DNA from: Wenzhouxiangella sp. | GTDB lineage: Bacteria; Pseudomonadota; Gammaproteobacteria; Xanthomonadales; Wenzhouxiangellaceae | Assembly (NCBI GenBank): GCA_007134485.1 | Contig: SLKT01000162.1 | Span: 1 to 35,074, forward strand | DNA: 35,074 nt | Direction of reading: 5' to 3' | Part shown: positions 2,201-34,945 of the stretch, one piece after another | How positions within the stretch are numbered: position 1 is the first letter of the stretch | Layout of the letters: every line of letters starts with the position of its first letter | Notes under the pieces: generated by a model | Database searches by the model: none | What the model was told of the DNA's origin: nothing | The model's input: only the letters and a program-made list of their open reading frames with translations | Made by a program: the position numbers and the translations under genes

Positions 2201-4894
2201 ATGGTGACTGAAACGGGCCATTCATGGCCGGAAGGGCTCGTTCGCTTCCCGACCAAGTCCCGAATATCTCCGACCCTGGTGGGCGGCAAAGCGTTTTCGC
2301 TGATCGAACTCTCTTCCCATGACCTGGGCGTGCCGCCCGGCTGGGTGCTGACCACGGACTACTTTGCCGCCTGGATCCGCCGGATCACAGGCACCGTGCC
2401 ATTCAGGACGCTTAAAGATGCCCCATCGGATCAGCAAGCCCTGTTATGTGAAGACATCAAGGCCAGGGCACGGAGTCTTGAGCTGGACGATCAGCAGGAA
2501 CGCACGTTCGGATTCCTGCTCGACCAGGTGACAGCCCGTGGTCCTGATGCCTTGTTCGCGGTGCGCTCGTCGTCTGTCCAGGAAGACCAGCCCGGCCACT
2601 CCTTTGCCGGTGGTTATCAAACCTGCCTGGGCGTGAAAGCCGAGGGCCTGCTTGAAGCGATTCGTCTTTGCTTTGCCTCACTGTTCGATCATCGCGTGCT
2701 CAGTTACAAGCTCGCCCGGGGGCTGGACCCGCTGGACTGTTCGATGGCGCTGATCATTCAGAAACAAATCGCCAGCGAGACTGCGGGTGTGGCGTTCTCA
2801 ATCAACCCCTTAAGCAATGACTACGATGAGGCGGTGATCGAGGCCAATCCCGGCCTCGGTGAGCCGCTGGTCGCGGGCCTGGTCCGACCCGATCACTGGG
2901 TGATCGACAAACCTTCCGGCAAGATCCTGGAATTCAGGCCGGGGGATCGTCGAGTCTGTCGCCGGCTCGAGGCCGATGGTCGCCAGGTCGACCAGGTCGG
3001 TGAGCCATCCGACACCCCCTGTATCGACCCGCAACAACTGGATGAACTGCTGGTGCGACTGGAGCAGGTCGAGCGGTTATTTGAATGTCCGGTCGACATC
3101 GAGTGGGCAATAGCCGATGACCGGCTGTACCTGCTGCAGGCCCGACCGATCACCGCCTGGGTGCCCCTGGCGCCGTCCCTGGTGACCCCGCCCGGGCAGC
3201 GCCGTCGACTGTACATGGACGCAGGCCTGTCCAGCGGACTGACCATCAATGCACCGATTTCTCCGATGGGTCTTTCGGTGATACGCCAACTGCTGCTGGA
3301 CCTGGGCGAAATGACTTTTGGCCGACTCGATGGCGACCTGCCTGTCGAGGAAGCGCTTGTCCATTTCGACGGTGGACGCATGTACCAGGACCTGTCGAAC
3401 CTGTTCTGGCTGACCAGCCCGAAAAAACTGGCTGCCAACATGGAAGTCAGCGATGCCCGCATGGCGCGCCTGCTCAAGGCCATCGATCGCAAACAGTATC
3501 GGTCGCCGCGACGCCCGCGCTGGGCTCGTTTGCGGATGCTCTTGCGCCTGCCGCTGGCGTTGTGGCGCAGCCGAACCATGCTGTTCAACATGCTGATGCC
3601 GCTGCTGGCCCCGGAACGCATGCATCGATCCCAGCTTGAGCAACTGAAACGCTTGGAAGACAGGCTGCAGGCAGTCCCGGACGAAGGGCTGACTGTAACG
3701 GACACCTGGAGCACTCACGTTCGACCCTGCCTAGATGACCTATTCAATGTCTCGCTGCCCGTGGTGGGCACCGGCGTACTGGCCACGACGCTGTTCAGGC
3801 GACTGGCACGACGCCCGGCAACAGGCGACAAGTCATTAATTGATGACGTCGAACGCGGCTTTGAAGGCAACGTGGTCGTGGAAATGAACCTGGCCCTGGC
3901 CGATCTGGCCCATCTGATCCCCGAAGCACTGCGCGCCCAACCCGAAGAACTTGAAAAACTCCTGGCCGATGCGCCACCGGAATCTTCCTGGATACGCGCC
4001 TGGCGGACATTCATGCAGCGATTCGGCTTTCGCGGTCCCGGCGAAATGGACATTGCCCGCCCACGCTACAGCGATGCACCGCTTGATCTGCTGCGCCAGG
4101 TGATCGGCATGCCCACCGACCGATCAGCTTTCGATCCCCATCAGGCCTGGCAACAAAGATCCCGCCAACGTCGTGAAGCGGTGGAAACCCTGCTTGAACG
4201 CTCCGGCCCGATCCGCCGACGTCTGCTGGGCCGACTGAACCGGGTCATCGAGCGATACGCCGGGCTGAGGGATTCCCCTAAGCAACACCTGCTGATGATC
4301 ATGCAGTCATTGCGTGCCCGCATACTGACCGCCGGTCATGAACTCGAGCAGCGTGGACAACTGGACGACGCCAGGCAGGTTTTCCAGCTTGAACTACAAG
4401 AGTTGATGGAAGCAATTAAGGATCAAGATGCCAGCCTGACAGATCGGATCCAGCAACGCAGCGCCTGGCAGCGCAAACTTGAGGCTGCGGTAATCAACTT
4501 CCCGCCGCTGATTGATTCACGCGGCCGAATACTTCGCCAGCCCACGGATCCCGACAGCGTCGATGGACTGCAGGGTGTTGGACTGTCACCCGGCGTTGCC
4601 CGAGGACGCGCCCGAATCGTGCACTCACCCGAAGTGGCAACACTGGAATCGGGCGATATCCTGATCGCTTACGCCACCGACCCCGGCTGGACTCCGTTGT
4701 TTGCCAATGCCGCTGCGGTCGTGCTGGAAGTGGGCGGCGCCTTGCAACATGGCGCGGTAGTGGCCCGGGAACTCGGCCTACCCTGCGTGGCCGGCATCGA
4801 CGGCGCAACCACCACCTTGCATGATCAATCCATGATCGAGGTGGATGCCGATGCGGGTACGGTCAGGGTGATCGGTGAGCAAGACATCGGTTAG
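2201..4894 (+). CDS. PEP-utilizing enzyme, rifampin phosphotransferase / PEP synthase-like
   Basis: The 897-residue protein has the three-part plan of rifampin phosphotransferases and PEP synthases. An N-terminal ATP-grasp-like PPDK domain spans about residues 15-325 (LVGGKAFSLIELSSHDLGVP, FAVRSSSVQEDQPGHSFAGG, VDIEWAIADDRLYLLQARPI). A long helical middle domain spans about 330-780 and includes RFGFRGPGEMDIARPRYSD, close to the RPH substrate domain. A C-terminal phosphohistidine swivelling domain contains GGALQHGAVVARELGLPCV, with His850 as the likely phospho-carrier. Known RPH enzymes phosphorylate rifampin using ATP; related proteins in non-producers often have unknown substrates. Start ATG 2201 has GGGAG seven bases upstream. 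The family is certain; the substrate is not. Confidence 0.85.
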   Translation: MVTETGHSWPEGLVRFPTKSRISPTLVGGKAFSLIELSSHDLGVPPGWVLTTDYFAAWIRRITGTVPFRTLKDAPSDQQALLCEDIKARARSLELDDQQERTFGFLLDQVTARGPDALFAVRSSSVQEDQPGHSFAGGYQTCLGVKAEGLLEAIRLCFASLFDHRVLSYKLARGLDPLDCSMALIIQKQIASETAGVAFSINPLSNDYDEAVIEANPGLGEPLVAGLVRPDHWVIDKPSGKILEFRPGDRRVCRRLEADGRQVDQVGEPSDTPCIDPQQLDELLVRLEQVERLFECPVDIEWAIADDRLYLLQARPITAWVPLAPSLVTPPGQRRRLYMDAGLSSGLTINAPISPMGLSVIRQLLLDLGEMTFGRLDGDLPVEEALVHFDGGRMYQDLSNLFWLTSPKKLAANMEVSDARMARLLKAIDRKQYRSPRRPRWARLRMLLRLPLALWRSRTMLFNMLMPLLAPERMHRSQLEQLKRLEDRLQAVPDEGLTVTDTWSTHVRPCLDDLFNVSLPVVGTGVLATTLFRRLARRPATGDKSLIDDVERGFEGNVVVEMNLALADLAHLIPEALRAQPEELEKLLADAPPESSWIRAWRTFMQRFGFRGPGEMDIARPRYSDAPLDLLRQVIGMPTDRSAFDPHQAWQQRSRQRREAVETLLERSGPIRRRLLGRLNRVIERYAGLRDSPKQHLLMIMQSLRARILTAGHELEQRGQLDDARQVFQLELQELMEAIKDQDASLTDRIQQRSAWQRKLEAAVINFPPLIDSRGRILRQPTDPDSVDGLQGVGLSPGVARGRARIVHSPEVATLESGDILIAYATDPGWTPLFANAAAVVLEVGGALQHGAVVARELGLPCVAGIDGATTTLHDQSMIEVDADAGTVRVIGEQDIG

Positions 4895-4944
4895 GCACAA
4901 TCATGGCTGCTCAATCACGATGGCGATGGCGGCCGGAATGTTTC

Positions 4945-5586
4945 TTAGCAACCGCCACCGCCGCCTCCACCGCCCGCGCCCCCTCCCGATCCACGACGGG
5001 CGGACTCCTGTAGCCAGAACATCGTGTGAACGGCGATTGCCAGGGCATCGAGACGAACGGGTCGATGCATCCAGATGACGAACTCCTTGAAGACCAGTCC
5101 GCTCGAGGCCTGGTTGACTTCAAGTTCGGCGAGCGTGCCGGTCGCGTCGATCAATTGCCGGTGATAGTTGTGGCCACTTCCGCCGTCCCAGTCACAGCGA
5201 ACGTTATAGCGATGTCCATCCACTTCGAACCCGCCCGTCAGGCGCTTCCAGGTCGCGCTGGTTTCCCGAACCTCGGCGGCCACACCATAGCCGGCCCGCC
5301 AGACCATTCGCCGTCGGGGCATTTTGAAGAATGACCAACCTTCTGCAAATGAGTGGTCATCCGGGCGATCGAACCGCAGGCGACGGGCGGGCAGGCACAA
5401 TTCCATACCAATGTCGGAAAACCAGCCAGTCTTTCGCAATGACGCAAGCGCCTGTTCACCACGCGCGATTCTGAAACCCTTGCCGACCGCACCACTCAGT
5501 GCCGTCATGAATGATGTAGTCGGAGTGAAGTACAGATGTTTTTCGACAAGTTGCTTGTATGGTGACGGAGCGCTCGCTACCTCCAT
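4945..5586 (-). CDS. Uncharacterised protein with poly-glycine C-terminus ending in Cys
   Basis: 213 residues if translation starts at ATG 5586, which has AGGAG seven bases upstream; a TTG fifteen bases further upstream is less likely. I do not recognise the body. It is a soluble-looking mixed alpha/beta protein with many Trp, Arg and His residues, for example YNVRCDWDGGSGHNYHRQL, and no signal peptide or obvious membrane span. The last 15 residues are almost all Gly and end in Cys (GSGGGAGGGGGGGGC). Glycine-rich tails with terminal Cys occur in some uncharacterised bacterial families and may be a modification or anchoring site; that is only a suggestion. The gene lies 49 bases downstream of a membrane-protein gene on the same strand, so the two probably form an operon. 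Confidence 0.7.
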   Translation of the reverse strand: MEVASAPSPYKQLVEKHLYFTPTTSFMTALSGAVGKGFRIARGEQALASLRKTGWFSDIGMELCLPARRLRFDRPDDHSFAEGWSFFKMPRRRMVWRAGYGVAAEVRETSATWKRLTGGFEVDGHRYNVRCDWDGGSGHNYHRQLIDATGTLAELEVNQASSGLVFKEFVIWMHRPVRLDALAIAVHTMFWLQESARRGSGGGAGGGGGGGGC

Positions 5587-5635
5587 GAAGATTCTCCTCA
5601 AGCGATTCCAGGAATTGTCCAGGTATTGCTCTCGT

Positions 5636-6328
5636 TCAATAGCGTTTGTCTTGACCCGATGCTTTCCCCATGACCAGGCCCATTACATCAAGTACAGTCT
5701 GGTCGGTCAACTTCATCACTTTCGGGCGAATTCGATCGAGCAGATGGCTGAAACTCAGGCTGGCTGAGCTCACACCCCACACCAGCAATGGAAAGAATAT
5801 GAACATGGCCACCCAGCCCAGCGCCGATCCGACATAGGTTTCGCTGCCAAACAGCCAGGCGACGAACAGCGAGGCCGAGCAGATACCAGCGGCCAGCCCG
5901 GCGCGAAATATCTTGCGCTTGAGTGATGCGGGCTGCCATGGTCCGAACATCCAGCCACGCAACAGTCCAAGCAGGTAGCCGACAAGCGCGGCAACCAACC
6001 AGGTACCGTAGATCCAGGATTTGAAGTCCTGTTCAGTAAAGGTCAGAGTTTCGGCCTGGTCGCCTTGGCCTTCGGTCGCATCGTCCACCTCGTCCGCATC
6101 GTCCGGACCTACCCAGCGTTCCACCCAGGGCTCGGCGTGCTCGAGCATGCGATCAATGCCGCCCTGAAAATTGATCGCCAGCATGACGACAACCACCAGC
6201 ACAAGCAGCGCCCAGGAAAACACCATCGGAACGAGAGCGAGCCAGCGAAAGTAATCAATCACGAAGCCGATCAGCAATCCCGGCAGACCGGCTTGCGCTT
6301 CGGATTGTTGATACTCGGATGTTCCCAT
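5636..6328 (-). CDS. Uncharacterised four-helix membrane protein
   Basis: About 230 residues from ATG 6328. Four hydrophobic segments are visible: about residues 15-50 (FSWALLVLVVVVMLAINF), 110-130 (WIYGTWLVAALVGYLLGLL), 150-170 (AGLAAGICSASLFVAWLFG) and 175-200 (GWVAMFIFFPLLVWGVSSAS). An acidic loop rich in Asp and Glu lies between the first two (DDADEVDDATEGQGDQAE). No known family was recognised. The frame stays open upstream to about 6547, overlapping the divergent histidine kinase gene, so the true start is uncertain; 6328 lacks a clear ribosome-binding site. It probably shares an operon with the downstream poly-Gly-tail gene. Confidence 0.65.
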   Translation of the reverse strand: MGTSEYQQSEAQAGLPGLLIGFVIDYFRWLALVPMVFSWALLVLVVVVMLAINFQGGIDRMLEHAEPWVERWVGPDDADEVDDATEGQGDQAETLTFTEQDFKSWIYGTWLVAALVGYLLGLLRGWMFGPWQPASLKRKIFRAGLAAGICSASLFVAWLFGSETYVGSALGWVAMFIFFPLLVWGVSSASLSFSHLLDRIRPKVMKLTDQTVLDVMGLVMGKASGQDKRY

Positions 6329-6458
6329 GGAACGGTCGATTTTCGCATACTTGTCGGTCCTGCGCTGCTCGAGCTTGTTCAGGATTTTTCGCGCAGTCTG
6401 TACCGGGCAAAACCGATGCTGATAGACTTGAATCTTGATACTGCTGATTGACAGGTTC

Positions 6459-7739
6459 ATGACCAGCGACAATAGGTCTCGACAAGTGAATTTGCCGGAA
6501 AATTCGGCGGAACTTCTGGCCATGATCAACGAGGCCACGGCGCCCATGACCGGTGGCGATTATTTTCGCAACCTTGCTGCCCACCTGGCCTCCACCCTGA
6601 AAGTTCGCAAGGCGCTGATCACCGAGTGCCTGGATTACCCCGAGAACCATGTCCGCACGTTGGCGTTCTGGGAAGGCGATGAGTTTTCCGAGGATATTTC
6701 CTTTGATCTGGACGGCACACCGTGTCAACACGTCATCGACGACGGCGAGTTCTGTTTTCATCCCGAACACATGAACGAGCGTTTCCCGGAATGGTCGAGT
6801 CACGAAGGCGGCGTGGAAAGCTTCATCGGCATTCCCGTGTTCGCGCCATCGGATGGGCGTCTGGTCGGGCATATCGCGGTCTATGATCCTCGACCCATGG
6901 ATCGAAATCGGGTCGTCGAGTCCATGTTTCGCATCATCGCTGCACGTGCGGGGGGTGAAATCGAGCGCCTTCAGGCCGAAAAGGCCCTGCGTGACAGCGA
7001 GTCGCGCGCCCGCCAGCACTTGAGTCAACTGGCCCATGTCTCGCGTCTGAATGCCATGAGCGAGTTGACTTCTTCGCTGACTCACGAAATCAACCAGCCG
7101 CTGACCGCGGTCCTCAACTACTGCCGTACCAGCGTGAAACTGCTTGATCGCGAAGAGATCGACAAGGACAACCTTCGCGATGGTCTGCAGGCGGCCGTTG
7201 CCAGCGCCGAACGGGTCTCAAGCGTCGTCAAGAAGCTGCGCCAGTATGTGCGCCGTGGGGAAATCCGGTATCGGCCCGTGCCGGCTGATCAGTTGATTGA
7301 TGAATGCAGGGTCCTGCTCGATACCGAGGCCCACCATCATCAGGTCGACCTGAAGCTCGATGTCGAAGAATATCTGCCAACTGTGCGGGTGGACTCGGTA
7401 CTGATCCAGCAGGTCATTCTCAACCTGGTCAAAAACGGTATCGATGCCATTAACGACAGCGACCATTCTGTAAGAGAGCTGCAGATCAGCATTTCCACCG
7501 GGCCTGACAACGAGCTGTTGGTCGAAATCCGAGATTCTGGCAGCGGCGTGGCGGATGAACTACGTAAAAGGTTGTTCGAACCCTTTGAATCCAACCGCAA
7601 GGATGGCATGGGCATTGGACTGGCCCTGTGCAAGTCCATCATCGACAATCATGATGGGCGTCTGTGGCTTGAATCAACGGGCAACGATGGTTCCGTTTTC
7701 AGGTTTTCCCTGCCCGCGATTGAACCCGGCGCTACCTGA
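6459..7739 (+). CDS. Soluble GAF-domain sensor histidine kinase
   Basis: The protein is 426 residues from ATG 6459; a TTG 24 bases upstream is possible. An N-terminal GAF-like sensor domain spans about residues 15-175 (ESFIGIPVFAPSDGRLVGHIAVYD). It is followed by a coiled linker and the H box SSLTHEINQPLTAVLNYCRT at about residue 210. The HATPase domain shows the N box NLVKNGIDAI, the G1 box RDSGSGV and the G2 region GMGIGLALCKSIIDNHDGRLW. The HEINQPL box is that of the FixL/TodS-type (HPK4) kinases, which pair with FixJ-type regulators; one is encoded at 8337-8987. There is no transmembrane segment, so it probably senses a cytoplasmic ligand or redox state. Its last 8 bases overlap the end of the convergent sigma factor gene. 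Confidence 0.9.
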   Translation: MTSDNRSRQVNLPENSAELLAMINEATAPMTGGDYFRNLAAHLASTLKVRKALITECLDYPENHVRTLAFWEGDEFSEDISFDLDGTPCQHVIDDGEFCFHPEHMNERFPEWSSHEGGVESFIGIPVFAPSDGRLVGHIAVYDPRPMDRNRVVESMFRIIAARAGGEIERLQAEKALRDSESRARQHLSQLAHVSRLNAMSELTSSLTHEINQPLTAVLNYCRTSVKLLDREEIDKDNLRDGLQAAVASAERVSSVVKKLRQYVRRGEIRYRPVPADQLIDECRVLLDTEAHHHQVDLKLDVEEYLPTVRVDSVLIQQVILNLVKNGIDAINDSDHSVRELQISISTGPDNELLVEIRDSGSGVADELRKRLFEPFESNRKDGMGIGLALCKSIIDNHDGRLWLESTGNDGSVFRFSLPAIEPGAT

Positions 7740-25513: not shown

Positions 25514-27799
25514 ATGAATCACGACAAAGAACGAATCCTTCCGGTTGGAATCGCGCTCGCACTGGTCCTGGTTGCCATCCCGGTGATTGCCGACGAACCG
25601 GATACCGCCTGGACCGGACAAACGGACTCCGACTGGTTCGAGGCGGGGAACTGGACCGGGGGCGTGCCCGGAAGCGGAGACCTTGTCCATATCGACACAG
25701 ATATTCCGAATCCGACCGAAATTGAAGACGGGGAAACCGAGGAAATCGGCGATCTGTTTGTCGGCGTCGAAAACCAGGCCGGGCTTTCGATCCTCGACGG
25801 CGGGGTGCTCAACACTACGACTACCCGAAGTGGGCAAGAGGCTCAAAGTTCAGTGAATATCTTCGTGGCCGGCGGGGCAGAATGGTCCAACGACGAACAT
25901 ATCATTCTGGGCACTGACGGTTCGAGCAGTCTCACCGTTGAAGATGGCGGAAAGATTTCAAGCACCTGGGTGCGAATGGCTACTTTTGAAGACAGCACCA
26001 GTTCGGTAACCCTGTCCGGTGAAGATACCGAATGGCTTGCGGGTAATTTCAATGTTGGTAATTCTGGAGAGGGCACGCTGGTAATCGAGGACGGTGCAAG
26101 ACTTAGAAACAATATCGCACGGGTAGGAAGTAACGAATCCGAGGCGCACAGCACGGCAACCATACGCGGGCCTGGCAGTCACTGGGACAAGTGGAGCGTA
26201 CTGATTGTTGGGGAATCGGGTACCGGCACCGTCGAGATTCTGGATGGAGCAACAGTCGACAGCGGGGTCTTCGGCTCTATCGGCCAGGAGCCCGAGGGCG
26301 AAGGCCACGTTGTAATCAGCGGTGCCGGTTCCAAATGGGAAATCTCCGGCACCAGTCCGGTGTTGACCGTCGGGGACGAGGGTTACGGAACCCTGCTCAT
26401 CGAAGACGGTGGGGAACTGGTGCACGGGGATGCTGCCACCATCGGGCTTGAATCCGACGCGGAAGGTTCGGTGACAGTCTCGGGTGCCGAATCAAACTGG
26501 ACCGCGGGTGCTGAATTGATTGTCGGGGACGAGGGTTATGGAACCCTACTCATTGAAGGCGGCGGCACGATGACGCACCAGGCCTTTGTCAACGTAGGCG
26601 GAGAATCCGCCGGGGAAGGTACGGTGACGGTTACCGGTGCCGGCTCGACCTGGAATGCCGGCGGTACGATGAACATCGGGCGTTTCGGAACCGGGAGCGT
26701 TATCGTCGAGGATGGTGGCGAGGTTTATAGCGGAGCGGCTCGAGTGCCCATTGGTGCCGGTGGTAGCGATGGCACGCTGATCGTTCGGGACCCCGGTTCC
26801 CGACTGGAACTGGAAGTAGAGTCATCCAACAACCATCTAACCCTTGCCTGGACCGGCACCAGCGAAATGCTGATCGAAAACGGCGGTCGTGTTGTGAACG
26901 AAGAAGGACGGATCGCCTTTGGTTTGAATACTACTGCCACGGCCACCGTTGATGGCCCGGATTCGGAATGGGTCAATGAAACATCACTTACTCTTCGACG
27001 GGGCGACGCGGTGCTGAATATCCAGAACGGGGCTACCGTAAGCGTGGCCGGCGGCAGCGGCACGGTCGATGTCGGCGAAGTAAGTGAAGCTGAATCGGTG
27101 ATTCACATCGGCAACGGTCAGCTTCCCGGGCTGATCGAGGCCGCCACCATTTTCGGTGGTGACGGCGAAGCCGAACTGGTTTTCGATCACACCTCGGGCA
27201 GCCATTATTTCACCCAGGACGGGACGGCCGGCGGCGAAGAGATCGAACTGGCCGGCTCGCTGGCGCTGCTGCATGCCGGTCCGGGCACCACGATCCTGCC
27301 CGGCGCTCATTCCCATGCCGGACCGTCCCTGGTCACCGGCGGCACGCTTCGAGTGACAGGCGATATGTCCAGCGCGGTGACGGTGGAAAATGGTGGAAAT
27401 CTGTCCGGCGCCGGTAGCACGGGGGCGGTTGAGATCAACGACGGCGGCATGCTGTCACCGGATCCTGTGGCCGGCAGCCTGGAAATTGATTCCGGCCTCA
27501 CCCTTCATGCCGATTCGACCACGACTTTCGGGCTGGCTGAGCCGGGCAGCACGGAAAACAGCCGCGTCGACGTGGACGGTGACCTGGTCCTCGACGGAAC
27601 GCTCGACATTCAGATGATCGAGGGATTCTCCAAAGGCACCTATACGCTGATGACCTATACCGGAGATCTACAGGACGAGGGCCTGACCCTCGGCCAGATA
27701 CACGGCAGCGCCTTTGTCGATACCGACACGCAGGGCGAGGTCAGGCTGGTGGTCGAAGAGGTCCAGTTGCAGATCTTTCACGACCGGTTCGAGGGCTGA
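25514..27799 (+). CDS. Secreted beta-helix repeat protein, autotransporter-passenger-like
   Basis: 761 residues with a signal peptide (about residues 8-26, ILPVGIALALVLVAIPVIA). An early segment, WTGQTDSDWFEAGNWTGGVPG, is typical of autotransporter-associated repeat proteins. From about residue 80 to 560 there are many irregular repeats of about 45 residues with the pattern VGxxGxGTLxIEDGGxL...VTVSGAGSxW, as in right-handed beta-helices. There is no C-terminal beta-barrel, so it is not a classical autotransporter. It ends in FHDRFEG, which resembles the short C-terminal [IF]F-x-D-x-FE tail I recall from many secreted proteins of Lysobacterales relatives. Role unknown; adhesion or surface structure is possible. 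The ribosome-binding site is weak. Confidence 0.8.
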   Translation: MNHDKERILPVGIALALVLVAIPVIADEPDTAWTGQTDSDWFEAGNWTGGVPGSGDLVHIDTDIPNPTEIEDGETEEIGDLFVGVENQAGLSILDGGVLNTTTTRSGQEAQSSVNIFVAGGAEWSNDEHIILGTDGSSSLTVEDGGKISSTWVRMATFEDSTSSVTLSGEDTEWLAGNFNVGNSGEGTLVIEDGARLRNNIARVGSNESEAHSTATIRGPGSHWDKWSVLIVGESGTGTVEILDGATVDSGVFGSIGQEPEGEGHVVISGAGSKWEISGTSPVLTVGDEGYGTLLIEDGGELVHGDAATIGLESDAEGSVTVSGAESNWTAGAELIVGDEGYGTLLIEGGGTMTHQAFVNVGGESAGEGTVTVTGAGSTWNAGGTMNIGRFGTGSVIVEDGGEVYSGAARVPIGAGGSDGTLIVRDPGSRLELEVESSNNHLTLAWTGTSEMLIENGGRVVNEEGRIAFGLNTTATATVDGPDSEWVNETSLTLRRGDAVLNIQNGATVSVAGGSGTVDVGEVSEAESVIHIGNGQLPGLIEAATIFGGDGEAELVFDHTSGSHYFTQDGTAGGEEIELAGSLALLHAGPGTTILPGAHSHAGPSLVTGGTLRVTGDMSSAVTVENGGNLSGAGSTGAVEINDGGMLSPDPVAGSLEIDSGLTLHADSTTTFGLAEPGSTENSRVDVDGDLVLDGTLDIQMIEGFSKGTYTLMTYTGDLQDEGLTLGQIHGSAFVDTDTQGEVRLVVEEVQLQIFHDRFEG

Positions 27800-28602: not shown

Positions 28603-29127
28603 GAAAATCCCAGGCGTGGCGAGCTGGTTTCCAGCGTGCGCGATTACGGCCACCTGTTCAACCCCTACCGGGTCTTTCGACGTGATCTGTTCGATGTGGG
28701 CGGGCGCAAGCACTCGCTGAGCGAAATCGAGCTCGACATTCTGCTCGGCTCTCAATTCCGCAAACGGGGCTGGAAGGATGCCCGGGTCCATTTCACCGTC
28801 AATTGCGCCTCGGTCGGCTGCCCGCCGCTGCGAGCCGAAATCTTTACCGCTGACAATGTCGAGCACCTCATGGCCGAAAACACGCGCCGGTCACTCAACA
28901 CGCCGCTGCATCTTCGGATTGAAAACGACGTGCTCTACCTGAGCAGCCTGTTTGACTGGTACGAAGACGACTATGTCGAGCACTCCGGTTCGGTGCGTGA
29001 GTTTCTCAACGATTATGCCGACCCCGACCTGCAACCGGCCATCGAAGCCACCGAGCGCATTCGCTACATCGATTACGACTGGGACCTCAATTCGCCGGAG
29101 AACATGCAACCATTGATCGAACAATGA
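28258..29127 (+). CDS. Secreted DUF547 protein (intact copy)
   Basis: 289 residues from GTG 28258, with AAGGA close upstream; ATG 28267 is an alternative. A signal peptide occupies about residues 1-30 (LIAFTILALPAAAGA). The DUF547 domain follows, with DSANAFWLNAYNFFMIAHIL, LGSQFRKRGWKDARVHFTVN, and the conserved CASVGCPPLR containing two Cys. The fold resembles transglutaminase/papain-like proteins, but function is unknown. Its stop overlaps the TonB receptor start (ATGA), so the two are translationally coupled and probably act on the same extracellular substrate. A disrupted near-copy is at 24037-24759. Confidence 0.88.
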   Translation: MIIMFMPVRDRLQAGLIAFTILALPAAAGADVVEEIYQPYADLLAEFVSEHDLPNDGLVTSFDYRAALEHAETSGRLSEQRQRLAEFDPDVLTDRDSANAFWLNAYNFFMIAHILENPRRGELVSSVRDYGHLFNPYRVFRRDLFDVGGRKHSLSEIELDILLGSQFRKRGWKDARVHFTVNCASVGCPPLRAEIFTADNVEHLMAENTRRSLNTPLHLRIENDVLYLSSLFDWYEDDYVEHSGSVREFLNDYADPDLQPAIEATERIRYIDYDWDLNSPENMQPLIEQ

Positions 29128-31568
29128 CAAAGACCGCACCCGTATTCGTGGCAATGTCTCTGGCAATGTCGGTGAACCTCGCCATTGCCGAACAGCCTGT
29201 CGACGAGGAACTGGAAGACCGCATCACGGTCATCGGCTCGCTGGCCCAGGCGCGCACGCTGACCGAGTCGGCCGTGCCGGTCGATGTGTTCAGTGGTGAG
29301 CAGCTTCGCGCTACCGGCGCCGTGGGCAACGAGCTCGGCGAGGCGCTGGCGGTGCTGGCCCCGTCGTTCAACTTTCCACGCCAGTCCAACTCGGTCACCT
29401 CCGACCATGTCCGCTCGGCCCAGTTGCGCGGCATGAATCCGGACCAGGTGCTGGTGCTGGTCAACGGCCAGCGCCGCCATGTCTCGGCGATGGTCAACGA
29501 CAACACCAAGATCGGCCGCGGAACCAATGCCTTTGACTTCAACACCATCCCCTTGAGCGCGGTCAAGCGCGTCGAGATCCTGCGCGACGGGGCCAGCGCC
29601 CAGTATGGTTCAGACGCCATTGCCGGGGTGATCAACATTGTCCTTGACGATTCACCGGCCGGTCTGGTCGCCGGTGCCAGCTACGGCGCCCACCACACCC
29701 GGGTCAGCCCCATCAGTCAGACCGTGACCGACGGCAATACCGCCACCGCCTGGCTCAACCACGGCCATCAAACCCGCCGGGGCGGGTCGGTTCGCTACGG
29801 TATCGAAGCCTCGCGCCGGGGAGCGACCAACCGGGCCGGCTTCGATCAGATCTCGCCGTTCATTCCCCAGACCGAGGACAACCTGGCCTTTCAGGGGCAG
29901 CAAACCCACCGGGTCGGCGACCCCGAGACCGAATCCATTGGCATTTGGATCAATAGCGAACTGGATTTCGAGGGGTTCAGCTTTTTCGGGTTCGGTACGT
30001 TCAGCCATCGGGATACCCGGGGCGCAGCCGTTTTTCGTCATCCCGACACCAACCAGAATGTCCGCGCCATCTTTCCGGACGGATTTCTGCCCGTCACGCG
30101 TGGGGACAATACCGATATTGGCCTGACCGGGGGCATCCGCCACCAGCAGTCGGCCTGGTCCTGGGAACATGCACTCAGCCTCGGACACAATCGCTTTGAA
30201 TTCGGCGTGGCCAACTCGCTCAACCCGTCACTGGGCCCGGACAGTCCAACCCGATTCGACTCCGGCACTTTCGACCTGACCCAGGTCAATGTCAGCAACA
30301 AGGCCAATCGCCGCTTCGATGATCTGGTGGCCGGCCGTCCGCTCCACCTGGCGCTGGGTCTGGACTACCGCTATGATCGCTTCGAGAGCCGTCCCGGCGA
30401 TCCGGCTTCGTTTGCCGCCGGTGACTTCCAATTCGAGCCCGACCTGGCGGAACTGGTCGGCTTTCCGGACATCGGCTCGCAGGGCGCCAAGGGGCTGTCA
30501 CCGGAAGACGCGACCCGCGAAGACCGCCACGTGTTCGCCCTGTTTGCCGAACTGTCAACCGATCTGAGCGAACGCCTGGAAACCTCCCTGGCCGGGCGCT
30601 TCGAACACTACAGTGACTTCGGCAGCACCCTGACCGGCAAGCTGGCCGCGCGCTACCGACTTGACCACGGCCTGTCAGCACGAACCTCGATCTCGAGCAG
30701 CTTCCGGGCGCCATCACTCAGCCAGATCGGCTGGGGACGTCGCGACAATACTTTTTCGGCCGAAGGCGCACGCATCTCCTCGCGCCTGATCCGGACCGGG
30801 TCCGAACTGGCTGATCAATTGGAACTGCCTTCGCTGGATGAAGAGACCTCGATCAACGTCAGCGCCGGTGTGGTCTGGACCAGCGACTTCGGGTTGAATC
30901 TGTCGGTTGATCTGTTCGAAATTCGGGTCGATGATCGCATTACCCAGTCCGAGTTTCTGACCGATCCGGCGCTGATCGACTTCGTTCAGCAATTGCCCGG
31001 CGGTGAAGGGGTGCAATCCATCGGTTTCTTTTCCAACGCCGTTGACACCCGCACCCGCGGCATCGAGGCCGTGCTCGACTACTCCCGTCCGGTGGCCGGT
31101 GGCCTGTGGCGCATTGACAGCGCCTGGACCTGGGCCAGAAGCGATATTCGCGACATTGCCGAACCGCCGGGTCGAATCAGCGAGATCAGCCCGGATCTCA
31201 ACCCGGTGGGGGTTGAGCAGCGCAATACCATCGAAACCGCCACCCCGCGGCATAGCTGGATCACCACCACCGCCTGGCAGGGTCAACGCTGGCGCGGACT
31301 GGTTCGCGGTCGCTACTTCTCCTCGGTGGTGCGCGAGTTCACGTTTGCCCGCCAACGCTTTGGCAGCCAGTGGGCCCTGGATGCCGAGTTGTCCCGCACC
31401 CTGACACCGAGCTGGACGCTGACGGCCGGGGCCAATAACCTGTTTGACCAGTATCCGGACGAATCAGCCAACGCCAACAACTTCTTCGGCAATTTCGCCT
31501 TCGACCCGATCAATCCTATCGGCCTGAACGGACGATTTGTTTACCTGCGATCCGAACTGCGCTTCTAA
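29124..31568 (+). CDS. TonB-dependent outer-membrane receptor
   Basis: 814 residues from ATG 29124 (ATGA overlap with DUF547). The signal peptide is about residues 1-22. The plug domain (about 35-180) shows ITVIGSLAQARTLTESAVPV, LRGMNPDQVLVLVNGQRRH, VKRVEILRDGASAQYGSDAI and AGVINIVLDD. The remainder is a beta-barrel with FNFPRQSN-type strand patterns, and the protein ends in LRSELRF with the C-terminal Phe expected for outer-membrane insertion. The substrate is unknown. The last 48 bases of the gene recur after the borosin methyltransferase gene. Confidence 0.93.
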   Translation: MTKTAPVFVAMSLAMSVNLAIAEQPVDEELEDRITVIGSLAQARTLTESAVPVDVFSGEQLRATGAVGNELGEALAVLAPSFNFPRQSNSVTSDHVRSAQLRGMNPDQVLVLVNGQRRHVSAMVNDNTKIGRGTNAFDFNTIPLSAVKRVEILRDGASAQYGSDAIAGVINIVLDDSPAGLVAGASYGAHHTRVSPISQTVTDGNTATAWLNHGHQTRRGGSVRYGIEASRRGATNRAGFDQISPFIPQTEDNLAFQGQQTHRVGDPETESIGIWINSELDFEGFSFFGFGTFSHRDTRGAAVFRHPDTNQNVRAIFPDGFLPVTRGDNTDIGLTGGIRHQQSAWSWEHALSLGHNRFEFGVANSLNPSLGPDSPTRFDSGTFDLTQVNVSNKANRRFDDLVAGRPLHLALGLDYRYDRFESRPGDPASFAAGDFQFEPDLAELVGFPDIGSQGAKGLSPEDATREDRHVFALFAELSTDLSERLETSLAGRFEHYSDFGSTLTGKLAARYRLDHGLSARTSISSSFRAPSLSQIGWGRRDNTFSAEGARISSRLIRTGSELADQLELPSLDEETSINVSAGVVWTSDFGLNLSVDLFEIRVDDRITQSEFLTDPALIDFVQQLPGGEGVQSIGFFSNAVDTRTRGIEAVLDYSRPVAGGLWRIDSAWTWARSDIRDIAEPPGRISEISPDLNPVGVEQRNTIETATPRHSWITTTAWQGQRWRGLVRGRYFSSVVREFTFARQRFGSQWALDAELSRTLTPSWTLTAGANNLFDQYPDESANANNFFGNFAFDPINPIGLNGRFVYLRSELRF

Positions 31569-31569
31569 A
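31522..31569. repeat. Direct repeat, left copy (3' end of TonB receptor gene)
   Basis: A 22-base identical block (31522-31543), 10 bases absent from the right copy, and a 16-base identical block (31554-31569). Weaker similarity continues to about 31616. Partner of 34514-34551. Confidence 0.85.
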
Positions 31570-31709
31570 ATCGGAAAAATCGGAATCGAAGCCCATCCCG
31601 GAGTCAATCCTTCGCGAGATCCGGATAGACCCCGAATATTTTGTTCCCTGGGCTGGCGCAAACGGCGCCAAGACCGTTAGTATCGTCACTTTGCAACTGG
31701 GAGAAGCTC

Positions 31710-31922
31710 ATGTCGAGATTGGTGGACTTGTTGCGCGATCTGGGGAATGACGCGGATCTTTGCGAGGCATTCAAGGCGGACCCCGATGCGGTGTGTGATC
31801 GCTATGGCCTTGACGACGACCAGAAGGCTGCACTGAAGGCCGGCGATGTGGAAGCCGTGAAGAAGGCTGCGGGACTGCCTACCGTATCGTTGACCAATGG
31901 CATAATCACTTCCTACGATTGA
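31710..31922 (+). CDS. Split-borosin-type RiPP precursor peptide (SonA-like)
   Basis: 70 residues from ATG 31710, with GGGAGAAG upstream. Residues 1-54 form a small helical leader like the borosin binding domain of SonA-type precursors and LigA-type nitrile-hydratase-like leaders: LVDLLRDLGNDADLCEAFKA, DPDAVCDRYGLDDDQKAAL, GDVEAVKKAAG. The C-terminal core, residues 55-70 (GLPTVSLTNGIITSYD), is rich in small and beta-branched residues suited to backbone N-methylation. No protease signal is evident. A borosin-type methyltransferase gene lies 1.8 kb downstream in the same operon. A 27-base gap separates it from the diguanylate cyclase gene. Starts further upstream (31641) lack a ribosome-binding site. 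Confidence 0.85.
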   Translation: MSRLVDLLRDLGNDADLCEAFKADPDAVCDRYGLDDDQKAALKAGDVEAVKKAAGLPTVSLTNGIITSYD

Positions 31923-31949
31923 CTCTTTTGTAGGTCGAACAGACCTGTC

Positions 31950-33698
31950 ATGCGCGTATTTCTCGTGATCGCCGGATTGAGTACCGCGATGTGGGCCGGT
32001 GCAGCCGATCCCGACGAAATCCAGTCGCGGCTCGATGAAATTGCCAGGATCAATGTCACGCAAGCCTGGGAACAATCCCAGGCGATGGCTGAACAACTCG
32101 CCGCCGAAATGGAAGGCGCCTCCGCCGAACAGCGGGCGCAGCTGGATTTGCTGTTCGCCAGAAACCTGGCCCTGGCTGGAAGGTATGCGGACGCCCTGGA
32201 GCTCCTTGACCCTATTCTCGATGCCGATTTGCCGAGCGAGCAACGCCTGCGCGCCTATGAAATGGCGGCCAATTATGCATTGAACAAATTGGACTACGAA
32301 CAGGCATTCACCCTGCTGCGCGACAGCATCACATTGTTGCCGGAAATCGATCGCCCGGCCCCCCAGGCTCGGTTACTGGGCTTGGCCGCCTATTTTCATA
32401 GCGAGGTCGGCGAACAGGAAATGGCGATCGACTATGCGGGTCAGGCTTTGGAATTGGCGCATGACAGTCAGGATGCGCGCGAACAGTGCATAGCCCTGCA
32501 TCGGCTGGCGCTGGCCCAGTTTCGGCTCGAGCGCTTCGCAACTGCCGAAGCAACCCATCGCCTGCAGATAGAGCACTGCGAAGCAGCCGGTGATCCCGTG
32601 CTGTCGGCAGCTGCAAAGAACGGTATTGGCAATGCTTTGCTGCGGCAGGGGCGGATCGATGAAGCCTTGCCATGGATTCGATCCGGATTGCAAAGAAACG
32701 AAGAACATGGATTTCGGGATGGCGTATTGGCCTCAAGACGTTTTTTGGCGCGCGGGCTCAAGGAAATGGGCGAGATCGATCAGGCTGAACAGATACTCAC
32801 GGAACTCATTGCAGCGCTTGAACGCGAGCAATACTGGAGTAATTTGCATGAATGCCTGGTGTTGTTGACGAACATCGCCGATGCGCGCGGTAATCCGGCT
32901 CAGGCGCTGGCCTTTTATCGCGAGGCCGAAGCGGCGCGCTCGAAACATCTGGAGCGCGAGCGAGCCATGCGTCTGGCGTATCTGCGCGTCGAGTTCGATA
33001 CGCGGATCAAGGAACAGGAACTCGCGCTGTTGCGCGAACAGAATCGGGTAATGCAACTGGAAGAGGACGCACGCAGCCAGCAGTCGCTGCTTTACATGGG
33101 CGGTACCGTGAGCCTGGGCATCATCGGCTTGCTACTGTTGCTGCTGCTGTTTCGCACCCAGTCCGAGAGGCGCCGGTTCAGAAAACTGTCGGAATACGAT
33201 GGCCTGACCGGCCTGTACAACCACACCCAGTTTTTCGCCAAGGCCAACGCCGCCTTTGATGAGAGTCGCGAACGCGGCTGCCCATTCACCCTGATCATCG
33301 CCGATATCGACTACTTCAAGAATATCAACGACCATCATGACCATCTGTTTGGTGACCAGGTACTGCGAATCGTGAGCGCCCGATTGCTCGAGGTATTCGG
33401 GAAGGCTGGGGTCGTCGGCCGCATCGGTGGCGAGGAATTCGGGATCGCTCTGCCCGGCAAAACCTGCGACGAGGCCTGTGATCAGATCGAGCTATTCAGG
33501 CGTATCGCCTCGGTGGTGCGGGCAGATGACAATGCGGCAGAGGTGACGCTGAGTTTCGGTGTGGCCCAGATGGATGACCGGGACGCGGGCGATCCCAGCC
33601 TGGAAAAGCTTCGGCGACGAGCCGATCATGCGCTCTACGGTGCGAAGGCCACGGGACGCAACCGGGTTGTCGTGGCATCGGAAAGCCATGTTGAATAA
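31950..33698 (+). CDS. TPR-sensor diguanylate cyclase (GGDEF)
   Basis: 582 residues from ATG 31950. A signal peptide (about residues 1-19) is followed by a helical TPR-like periplasmic region (about 20-340, e.g. RYADALELLDPILDADLPSE and ARGNPAQALAFYREAEAARS). A coiled coil (about 340-375) and one transmembrane helix (about 380-402, LGIIGLLLLLLLF) come next. The cytoplasmic GGDEF domain (about 412-575) has YDGLTGLYNHTQFF, ADIDYFKNINDHHDHLFGDQ and the active-site GGEEF in VGRIGGEEFG; no RxxD inhibitory site is visible. It should make c-di-GMP in response to a periplasmic signal. It lies between the borosin precursor and methyltransferase genes with gaps of 27 and 17 bases. Confidence 0.92.
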   Translation: MRVFLVIAGLSTAMWAGAADPDEIQSRLDEIARINVTQAWEQSQAMAEQLAAEMEGASAEQRAQLDLLFARNLALAGRYADALELLDPILDADLPSEQRLRAYEMAANYALNKLDYEQAFTLLRDSITLLPEIDRPAPQARLLGLAAYFHSEVGEQEMAIDYAGQALELAHDSQDAREQCIALHRLALAQFRLERFATAEATHRLQIEHCEAAGDPVLSAAAKNGIGNALLRQGRIDEALPWIRSGLQRNEEHGFRDGVLASRRFLARGLKEMGEIDQAEQILTELIAALEREQYWSNLHECLVLLTNIADARGNPAQALAFYREAEAARSKHLERERAMRLAYLRVEFDTRIKEQELALLREQNRVMQLEEDARSQQSLLYMGGTVSLGIIGLLLLLLLFRTQSERRRFRKLSEYDGLTGLYNHTQFFAKANAAFDESRERGCPFTLIIADIDYFKNINDHHDHLFGDQVLRIVSARLLEVFGKAGVVGRIGGEEFGIALPGKTCDEACDQIELFRRIASVVRADDNAAEVTLSFGVAQMDDRDAGDPSLEKLRRRADHALYGAKATGRNRVVVASESHVE

Positions 33699-33715
33699 CC
33701 CGTGGAGGCAGGATA

Positions 33716-34519
33716 ATGACCGGCGCCGAATCCGGTAGCGCATCAAAAAAGGGAGAACTGGTGCTGGTCGGCACCGGCATTCAGTACGGTCGCCATATCA
33801 CCCAGCGCGCGATTTCCGAGATCGAGTATGCCGACGTGGTGTTCTGCTTGGCGGATGGCCTTGCCATGTCGCTGGTCGCCAAATTGCGCCCGGACATGAT
33901 CAGCCTGGCCGGCTTTTATGGCGACGGAAAGGACCGCCGCCAGACCTACCGGGAGATGGATGAGGCGATCATGACCGAAGTGCGTGCCGGACACAAGGTC
34001 TGTGCAGTGTTTTACGGTCACCCTGGCGTATTCGCCGACGTGCCGCACGTCACCATGGGCAAGGCGCGCGCCGAAGGCCACCAGGCACGCATGGAGCCGG
34101 GCATTTCGGCCGAGGCCTGTCTTTACGCTGATCTCGGCATCGACCCGGGCAAGCGCGGCGTGCATTCGTTCGAAGCGACCCATTTTCTGATTTACGACCG
34201 CCGGATCGATCCATGCGGCTTGCTGATTCTGTGGCAAGTCGCTCTGTGCGGCGATTTGAGTTGTACACGTTTCGATGCCGTGCCCGAGCGACTTGCGCTG
34301 CTGGTCGAAAAGCTCAAGCGCTGGTACGCGCCCGAAACCGAAGTGATCTTGTACGAGGCTTGCCAGTTGCCGATCGGAACCTTCCGTGCCGACCGCATGC
34401 GCCTGGACGAGTTGCCCACCGCCAGCTACCAGGAATACACCACCCTGGTCATCCCCCCGGCCCGCGAGCTGGCCGAGGACTCGGGAATCCTGAATGCAGT
34501 TCGGGAATTGAACGCCTGA
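33716..34519 (+). CDS. Borosin-type peptide backbone alpha-N-methyltransferase (SonM-like)
   Basis: 267 residues from ATG 33716, with GGAGG upstream. It has the tetrapyrrole-methylase fold of split-borosin enzymes: GELVLVGTGIQYGRHITQRA, then a motor region GFYGDGKDRRQTYREM with Arg74 and Tyr78 four residues apart, as for Arg72/Tyr76 of the fungal borosin enzyme OphMA. Tyr100 in VFYGHPGVF matches OphMA Tyr98. The SAM-site segment EPGISAEACLYADLGIDP is clear. The enzyme should N-methylate backbone amides in the core of the 70-aa precursor encoded at 31710. There is no fused core peptide, so this is a split system. The final codon and stop lie in a copy of TonB-receptor 3' DNA. Confidence 0.9.
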   Translation: MTGAESGSASKKGELVLVGTGIQYGRHITQRAISEIEYADVVFCLADGLAMSLVAKLRPDMISLAGFYGDGKDRRQTYREMDEAIMTEVRAGHKVCAVFYGHPGVFADVPHVTMGKARAEGHQARMEPGISAEACLYADLGIDPGKRGVHSFEATHFLIYDRRIDPCGLLILWQVALCGDLSCTRFDAVPERLALLVEKLKRWYAPETEVILYEACQLPIGTFRADRMRLDELPTASYQEYTTLVIPPARELAEDSGILNAVRELNA

Positions 34520-34551
34520 ACGGACGATTTGTTTAGAACTGCGCTTCTAAA
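34514..34551. repeat. Direct repeat, right copy
   Basis: Repeats 31522-31543 (22 bases identical) and 31554-31569 (16 bases identical), lacking the 10 bases between them. It contains the stop codon of the methyltransferase gene. Weaker similarity continues to about 34590. Confidence 0.85.
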
Positions 34552-34576
34552 TTCGGAATCGGGATCGATCCCAAAT

Positions 34577-34945
34577 TCAATCGTTTGCGGCAATCGCAGC
34601 CCGCAATCGCACCGATTGCCGATCGCCGGCCAGGTCGATTCCGTCACCCCGCCATTCGATACCCAGCTGATCCATGGCCCATTCCAGATCTGGCTCGGCG
34701 GGCGCATCGATCATGCGCTCATGCTCGTCTCGCCAGATTCGGGTTCCACCCAGCCGGTCCAGCCGCTCAATCAGTTGCCTGGCATTCCAGGAGCGGTTCA
34801 TGTCGCGACAGCATCGGCCAAACGCCGCCAGCGTGGAATCGACCGACTGTTCACCATCCGAAGCCTCACACAAACGCATATCGACCCGCAGAAAGTAGGA
34901 CGCACCGGTCCAGTGAATACGGCGAAAGGCTTGCTCACGCCACAT
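34577..34945 (-). CDS. Hypothetical protein, possibly 5'-truncated
   Basis: 122 residues from ATG 34945. The codon usage looks genuine, with a GC-rich third position and regular amino-acid composition. Segments such as RDMNRSWNARQLIERLDRLG and RIWRDEHERMIDAPAEP do not match a family I know. There is no signal peptide. The palindromic element begins only 10 bases upstream of the ATG, and the frame remains open into it, so the original start may have been lost to the insertion. The gene is convergent with the borosin operon. An open frame on the opposite strand is judged a shadow. Confidence 0.5.
   Translation of the reverse strand: MWREQAFRRIHWTGASYFLRVDMRLCEASDGEQSVDSTLAAFGRCCRDMNRSWNARQLIERLDRLGGTRIWRDEHERMIDAPAEPDLEWAMDQLGIEWRGDGIDLAGDRQSVRLRAAIAAND

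Follow-up and report, generated by a model that had tools for sequence, protein, structure and literature searches.

A TPR/GGDEF diguanylate cyclase as regular third partner in a type IV-like split-borosin operon of Wenzhouxiangella sp. and in related loci

The stretch of DNA analysed here (35,074 nucleotides; hereafter the window) is one whole contig of a 3.35 Mb Wenzhouxiangella genome and carries a type IV-like split-borosin operon with a diguanylate cyclase as a regular third partner. Three genes on the forward strand encode a SonA-like precursor, a TPR/transmembrane/GGDEF protein and a SonM-like methyltransferase, and we hold the assignment of these parts to be close to certain. The trio presents the characters of type IV split borosins, namely a methyltransferase with the catalytic Arg/Tyr/Tyr set and a separate precursor with a borosin-binding (BBD) leader and a C-terminal core. 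The GGDEF partnership recurs in about a hundred related clusters, including the classic one of Shewanella, which suggests that the peptides act as signals.

The precursor (31710..31922, 70 aa, MSRLVDLL...SLTNGIITSYD) was recognised from its open reading frame, Pfam and the PDB sequence of SonA. Its BBD/LigA-like leader (residues 1-55, 31710..31874) aligned with residues 1-55 of SonA (7ltc_B) at an E-value of 5.6e-8, and the match to the LigA/BBD-type Pfam profile lay at 27.4 bits, narrowly over the cut-off of 25.3. The predicted core LTNGIITSYD (residues 61-70, 31890..31919) follows from the precursor alignment and the position of the core in SonA (PMC8429565). The second protein (31950..33698, 582 aa) matched the Pfam families GGDEF (E 4e-33) and TPR_12 (E 1e-12), and its AlphaFold model had a mean pLDDT of 92.8. 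An N-terminal hydrophobic signal segment (MRVFLVIAGLSTAMWAGAA, 31950..32006), modelled as a helix over residues 2-16, precedes TPR hairpins over residues 21-312 (32010..32885), a domain delimited by the model, its fold matches and an invariant cysteine pair (Cys180, 32487-32489; Cys210, 32577-32579). A single long helix (residues 316-415, 32895..33194) with a transmembrane stretch at about residues 378-400 leads into the GGDEF domain (residues 415-572, 33192..33665; Pfam and family alignment), which has a GGDEF fold in the model and contains the A-site GGEEF at residues 493-497 (33426-33440). Given the signal segment and the transmembrane helix, the TPR domain is predicted to be periplasmic. 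The third protein is an alpha-N-methyltransferase (33716..34519, 267 aa; Pfam, PDB SonM and alignment) that matched SonM with an E-value of 2.9e-70 and OphMA-type enzymes with an E-value of about 1e-43. Its residues R74 (33935), Y78 (33947) and Y100 (34013) align with R67, Y71 and Y93 of SonM; in an alignment of 24 sequences these three and W173 were invariant, and F106 and E153, which align with F99 and E146 of SonM, nearly so.

The genes are separated by 27 bases (precursor to cyclase) and 17 bases (cyclase to methyltransferase), a spacing from which we infer a single transcript. A scan for sigma-70 promoters and terminators gave a signal no better than shuffled sequence, and neither an exporter nor a leader peptidase was found among the genes of the operon. 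The preliminary description of this DNA thus read the anatomy correctly: a 70-aa SonA-like precursor, the order secretion signal, TPR, transmembrane helix and GGEEF in the middle protein, a SonM-like enzyme with catalytic Arg74, Tyr78 and Tyr100, and both gap lengths are borne out by the open reading frames, profile matches, structural model and alignments.

How general the partnership is was judged from borosin methyltransferase loci of three sources: relatives within the order (46 of 101 genomes with a methyltransferase), an even draw of the phylum (15 of 398 genomes) and contigs of named genomes (80 loci, obtained with an alignment-based scan after a single-sequence scan with the window methyltransferase gave no match); 18 loci of the genus Shewanella were added to these. 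After removal of duplicates, 128 distinct loci with full flanks were left; they were picked as relatives of the window methyltransferase, so that the counts speak for these and not for all borosins, and related loci among them are not independent. A GGDEF gene on the same strand was present in 125 of the 128, all except L195, L196 and L198, and was of the TPR type in 117. A BBD-type precursor was matched by the profile in 115 loci, and precursor and GGDEF gene occurred together in 113. The preliminary description had regarded a c-di-GMP synthase placed between the precursor and methyltransferase of a split borosin as without known precedent. That view does not hold, since these loci regularly include the GGDEF gene, which directly follows sonA in the type locus and is already named in a figure legend of 2024 (PMC11395268). 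The same description had named the lack of such a gene in all homologous loci as evidence that would speak against its own reading; the loci show the opposite, and its prediction thus passes this check strongly.

The cyclase gene might simply be co-transcribed with the peptide genes and have no functional tie to them, the more so as GGDEF genes abound in these genomes (21-49 in each genome counted, 35 per 3.35 Mb in that of the window). At the latter density, a gene would be expected to have one within 5 kb in about 12% of cases, against the 125 of 128 observed. Such hitch-hiking also fits poorly with the three gene orders, the gene fusions, the two separate trios in one genome and the exclusive co-occurrence in Shewanella described below, and we strongly disfavour it as highly improbable.

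The loci show the gene order of the window, precursor-GGDEF-methyltransferase, alongside methyltransferase-precursor-GGDEF and GGDEF-x-precursor-methyltransferase. In both main orders the precursor lies directly upstream of the cyclase, with a median distance of 121 nt between the precursor stop and the point at which the TPR match begins (125 pairs). The position of the methyltransferase varies: it stands before the cyclase, after it or fused to its end. In L164 and L175, precursor-GGDEF pairs are repeated around a single methyltransferase. The differing orders and the fusions indicate repeated retention of the partnership in spite of the kinship among loci. Genomes G003 and G011, relatives within the genus of the window, carry the same locus as W. 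sediminis (L121) and Wenzhouxiangella sp. 15190 (L124). The loci designated group C have a different GGDEF protein, lacking both the TPR region and the cysteine pair. As separate observations, L167 and L171 hold arrays of several borosin precursors beside one methyltransferase and cyclase, and a second borosin type occurs in the family (L094-L102): it has a methyltransferase, a precursor whose core reads, for example, MNFIIF or LQFIII, and, upstream across a gap of about 1.6 kb, a GGDEF protein of a different kind without TPR.

The partnership extends to the locus from which SonM and SonA were described. One Shewanella genome (G545) encodes a SonM 100% identical to the PDB sequence and is inferred to be S. 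oneidensis MR-1; its gene order is SonM, SonA and TPR/TM/GGDEF, the cyclase starting right after sonA. With SonM and SonA being SO1478 and SO1479 (PMC8429565), the adjoining cyclase would be SO_1480. All 18 Shewanella loci fetched contain the cyclase, and a full-length member of the cyclase family was found in 4 of 4 Shewanella genomes with the methyltransferase and in 0 of 10 without it. Separately, loci of the methyltransferase-precursor-GGDEF order (L075, L089, L146, L148, L157, L158, L184, L191, L213-L215) carry a gene for a shewasin-like, pepsin-family protease (DTGSS) just upstream of the methyltransferase, a candidate leader peptidase; no such gene lies beside the window trio. A search of the window's genome for the shewasin/pepsin family returned no match, and nor did its controls.

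The genome of the window holds a second complete precursor-cyclase-methyltransferase operon (contig C20, L005, G000:C20:6000-18000, 3921-6700, minus strand). The methyltransferases of the two trios are 57% identical and the cyclases about 36%, and the second precursor reads MSSLAQ...NGVIEWHE. A third cyclase of the family in this genome has no peptide genes nearby. The window trio is flanked by a direct repeat: the left copy (31522..31616, forward strand) covers the 3' end of a TonB-dependent receptor gene and its downstream edge, and the right copy (34514..34589, forward strand), with a 10-nt deletion, begins inside the methyltransferase gene, at its last Ala codon. The local score of the repeat was 96, compared with at most 40 for random pieces of the window. 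In one relative (G027, L247 4019-4423) the site is empty, and the receptor directly adjoins the convergent gene found beyond the trio in the window. From the repeat and this empty site, the trio apparently came in as one block of about 3 kb, and the sequence suggests that it moved or was inserted as such. The TonB-dependent receptor (29124..31568, forward strand, Pfam) lies upstream of the trio and outside the module; it was ruled out as a cluster member, as no homologue stands beside the other trios fetched and the gene is the insertion site. Further upstream of this receptor gene and a DUF547 gene, positions 25514-27799 encode a repetitive 761-aa protein that carries a secretion signal and, judged by eye, resembles an autotransporter.

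Within the cyclase family, the A-site (GGEEF or GGDEF) is intact in 122 of 125 paired cyclases. The window protein keeps GGEEF as well as the D, N, K and R residues that are invariant across the domain (metal and GTP residues), and its sequence thereby has the hallmarks of active diguanylate cyclases. A hydrophobic helix precedes the GGDEF domain in 124 of the 125 and a hydrophobic N-terminus is present in 118. The RxxD I-site was rejected as a constant of the family, being at its canonical place in just 53 of 125 and absent from the window cyclase. The TPR region is very divergent overall, and yet every one of the 124 paired cyclases aligned retains C180 and C210. In the AlphaFold model the two residues lie at facing ends of the TPR hairpin 176-192/196-213, an arrangement consistent with a disulfide in the oxidising periplasm. 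The modelled TPR fold resembles that of Rap with its pheromone (E 4e-11; superposition with Z 25.9, 4.8 A over 317 residues). It also resembles APPBP2 with a degron (Z 30.4), and LGN-peptide complexes superpose on it; APPBP2, APC/C and LGN match the domain as well as Rap does. Binding of peptides and proteins is a generic property of TPR folds; likeness of a model to peptide-binding superhelices is by itself no proof of function. Partial Mantel tests gave r 0.33 for leader against TPR divergence; the methyltransferase correlates equally with the TPR region, which evolves faster than the GGDEF domain and whose divergence correlates with everything compared, so that these tests single out no ligand-receptor pair.

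Because the pairing of precursor and cyclase is constant, the sensor predicted to be periplasmic and its fold of the peptide-binding kind, we favour an interpretation in which the cell makes the N-methylated peptide as its own signal and detects it with the periplasmic TPR domain, which would in turn control c-di-GMP synthesis. Drawing on gene context, fold and conservation, it is the best explanation at hand, and we advance it tentatively, granting it somewhat less than an even chance. It agrees with the preliminary description, which had proposed a tie to c-di-GMP signalling or detection of the peptide by this domain. Counting against it are the orphan cyclases treated below, the lack of genes for an exporter or leader peptidase in the operon, and the group C loci with their different GGDEF protein. 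By analogy with SonA and SonM, the helical leader of the precursor would dock on the methyltransferase and the backbone amides of the core would be methylated around N63-I66. The core would then be cut off, and a short, lipophilic, N-methylated peptide would leave the cytoplasm. This peptide, the cell's own or that of its neighbours, may bind in the periplasm to the TPR superhelix of the protein encoded alongside, as the constant gene pairing, the Rap-like fold and the invariant cysteine pair would suggest. The domain anatomy and the intact A-site point to a last step in which binding would be relayed through the single transmembrane helix to a GGDEF dimer, changing c-di-GMP synthesis.

The core peptides have a group-specific consensus. 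Precursors of the order precursor-GGDEF-methyltransferase share TN(S/G)T(I/V)xA(Y/H)(D/E), with I or V at residue 66 in 27 of 27 (I66 in the window); the fused group carries ATNHxIxAYD, and other groups carry other cores. Over the whole precursor-GGDEF-methyltransferase set, mean identity is 0.27 for the tail and 0.41 for the leader. Conservation of the core sequence across genera would suit a dedicated target or receptor, unlike a hypervariable antimicrobial. It also weighs against a different role for the cyclase, in which the peptide acts on the envelope or is metal-related, and the TPR-GGDEF protein serves to sense the envelope or to switch on self-protection, responding to the effect of the peptide and not to the peptide; the conserved motif does not suggest a diversifying toxin. 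In favour of this role, the invariant cysteine pair could enable the periplasmic domain to sense redox state or metals, and the TPR/GGDEF family includes orphan cyclases that carry the pair (L104, L217-L231), those of Wenzhouxiangella with neither precursor nor methyltransferase within about 3 kb. The orphans imply that the cyclase can do without peptide genes and may sense something else. As they carry the same pair, the pair marks the cyclase family and was rejected as a borosin-specific mark. A further point for the envelope role is that TonB-dependent receptor genes occur close to the window trio and also in S. oneidensis, where SO_1482 stands a few locus tags beyond sonMA; the absence of a receptor beside the other trios fetched and the insertion scar that separates it from the trio in the window make it a chance neighbour. 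We consider such an envelope sensor distinctly unlikely.

In 26 loci (L054, L058, L106-L113, L115-L118, L120, L122-L123, L125-L126, L128-L129, L132-L133, L135, L140 and L145) the TPR/TM/GGDEF protein and the borosin methyltransferase form one open reading frame. These fusions constitute one clade with a support of 1.0 and occur in Luteimonas, Thermomonas, Pseudoxanthomonas, Dokdonella and Rubrivivax, among others. In these proteins the methyltransferase extends the cyclase at its cytoplasmic end, so that the two domains share one side of the membrane. The cyclase could accordingly serve production of the peptide, as a membrane platform and local source of c-di-GMP that recruits or gates the methyltransferase, with maturation taking place at the membrane in response to a signal that the TPR domain picks up in the envelope. 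RcbA/RcbB lends this some plausibility as a diguanylate cyclase switched by its own TPR domain and a partner, albeit one whose TPR domain the abstract does not call periplasmic (PMC12282931). SonM, however, methylates SonA without the cyclase, both in heterologous expression and in vitro (PMC8429565), the fusion is limited to one lineage, and the methyltransferase has no known c-di-GMP-binding site. A link through production is unlikely on balance; it stays the chief rival of the signalling interpretation because the fusions fit it equally well.

Part of the link between borosins and GGDEF proteins is already in print. The Fig. 1 legend of PMC11395268 (2024) lists GGDEF among borosin architectures, naming neither the type nor whether the element is fused or adjacent, and what is meant there is probably the GGDEF-methyltransferase fusion seen here; in a limited literature search it was the only source to mention the two together. 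New are the constant adjacency of precursor and cyclase, the two invariant cysteines of the periplasmic TPR domain (124/124), the likeness of its fold to peptide-binding receptors such as Rap with pheromone, the co-occurrence of methyltransferase and cyclase in Shewanella and the insertion scar suggesting movement of the trio as a unit. According to the SonM paper of 2021 (PMC8429565), no type IV split borosin had yet been tied to a final natural product, and our limited search found no report on the function of this group. It is conceivable, if doubtful, that gammaproteobacterial split borosins at large are membrane-crossing N-methylated pheromones read by a dedicated periplasmic TPR-cyclase receptor; type IV would then have the function that it has long lacked, and c-di-GMP its first direct link to a RiPP signal.

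Among known systems, RcbA/RcbB of Vibrio vulnificus (PMC12282931) resembles the window in that a TPR domain is joined to GGDEF and the cyclase is controlled through a partner. It differs in that the partner is a TPR protein rather than a RiPP, in its polar localisation and in the lack of borosin genes. The RRNPP receptors (Rap, NprR and PlcR) share the TPR superhelix and a peptide gene adjoining the receptor gene. They are cytoplasmic regulators of Gram-positive bacteria, whereas the TPR domain of the window is predicted to be periplasmic and to drive a cyclase; the analogy is one of working principle, and the likeness seen is one of fold. The closest counterpart is SonM/SonA of S. oneidensis MR-1 (PMC8429565), likewise with a separate methyltransferase, a precursor of about 70 aa with a helical BBD leader and a TPR/TM/GGDEF gene directly after sonA. 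The catalytic positions R67 and Y71 of SonM are common to both enzymes, and the residues with clamp and lock roles in SonM (F99, W166 and E146; PMC8429565) correspond to F106, W173 and E153. The two systems differ in gene order, methyltransferase-precursor-GGDEF in Shewanella and precursor-GGDEF-methyltransferase in the window, and in the core, YLVISHGNGD in SonA and LTNGIITSYD here. With a receptor-like cyclase next to the crystallised SonM/SonA pair in S. oneidensis, a function from peptide to c-di-GMP becomes testable with existing reagents, the two invariant cysteines offering specific residues for this and the fusions of GGDEF protein and methyltransferase specific constructs.
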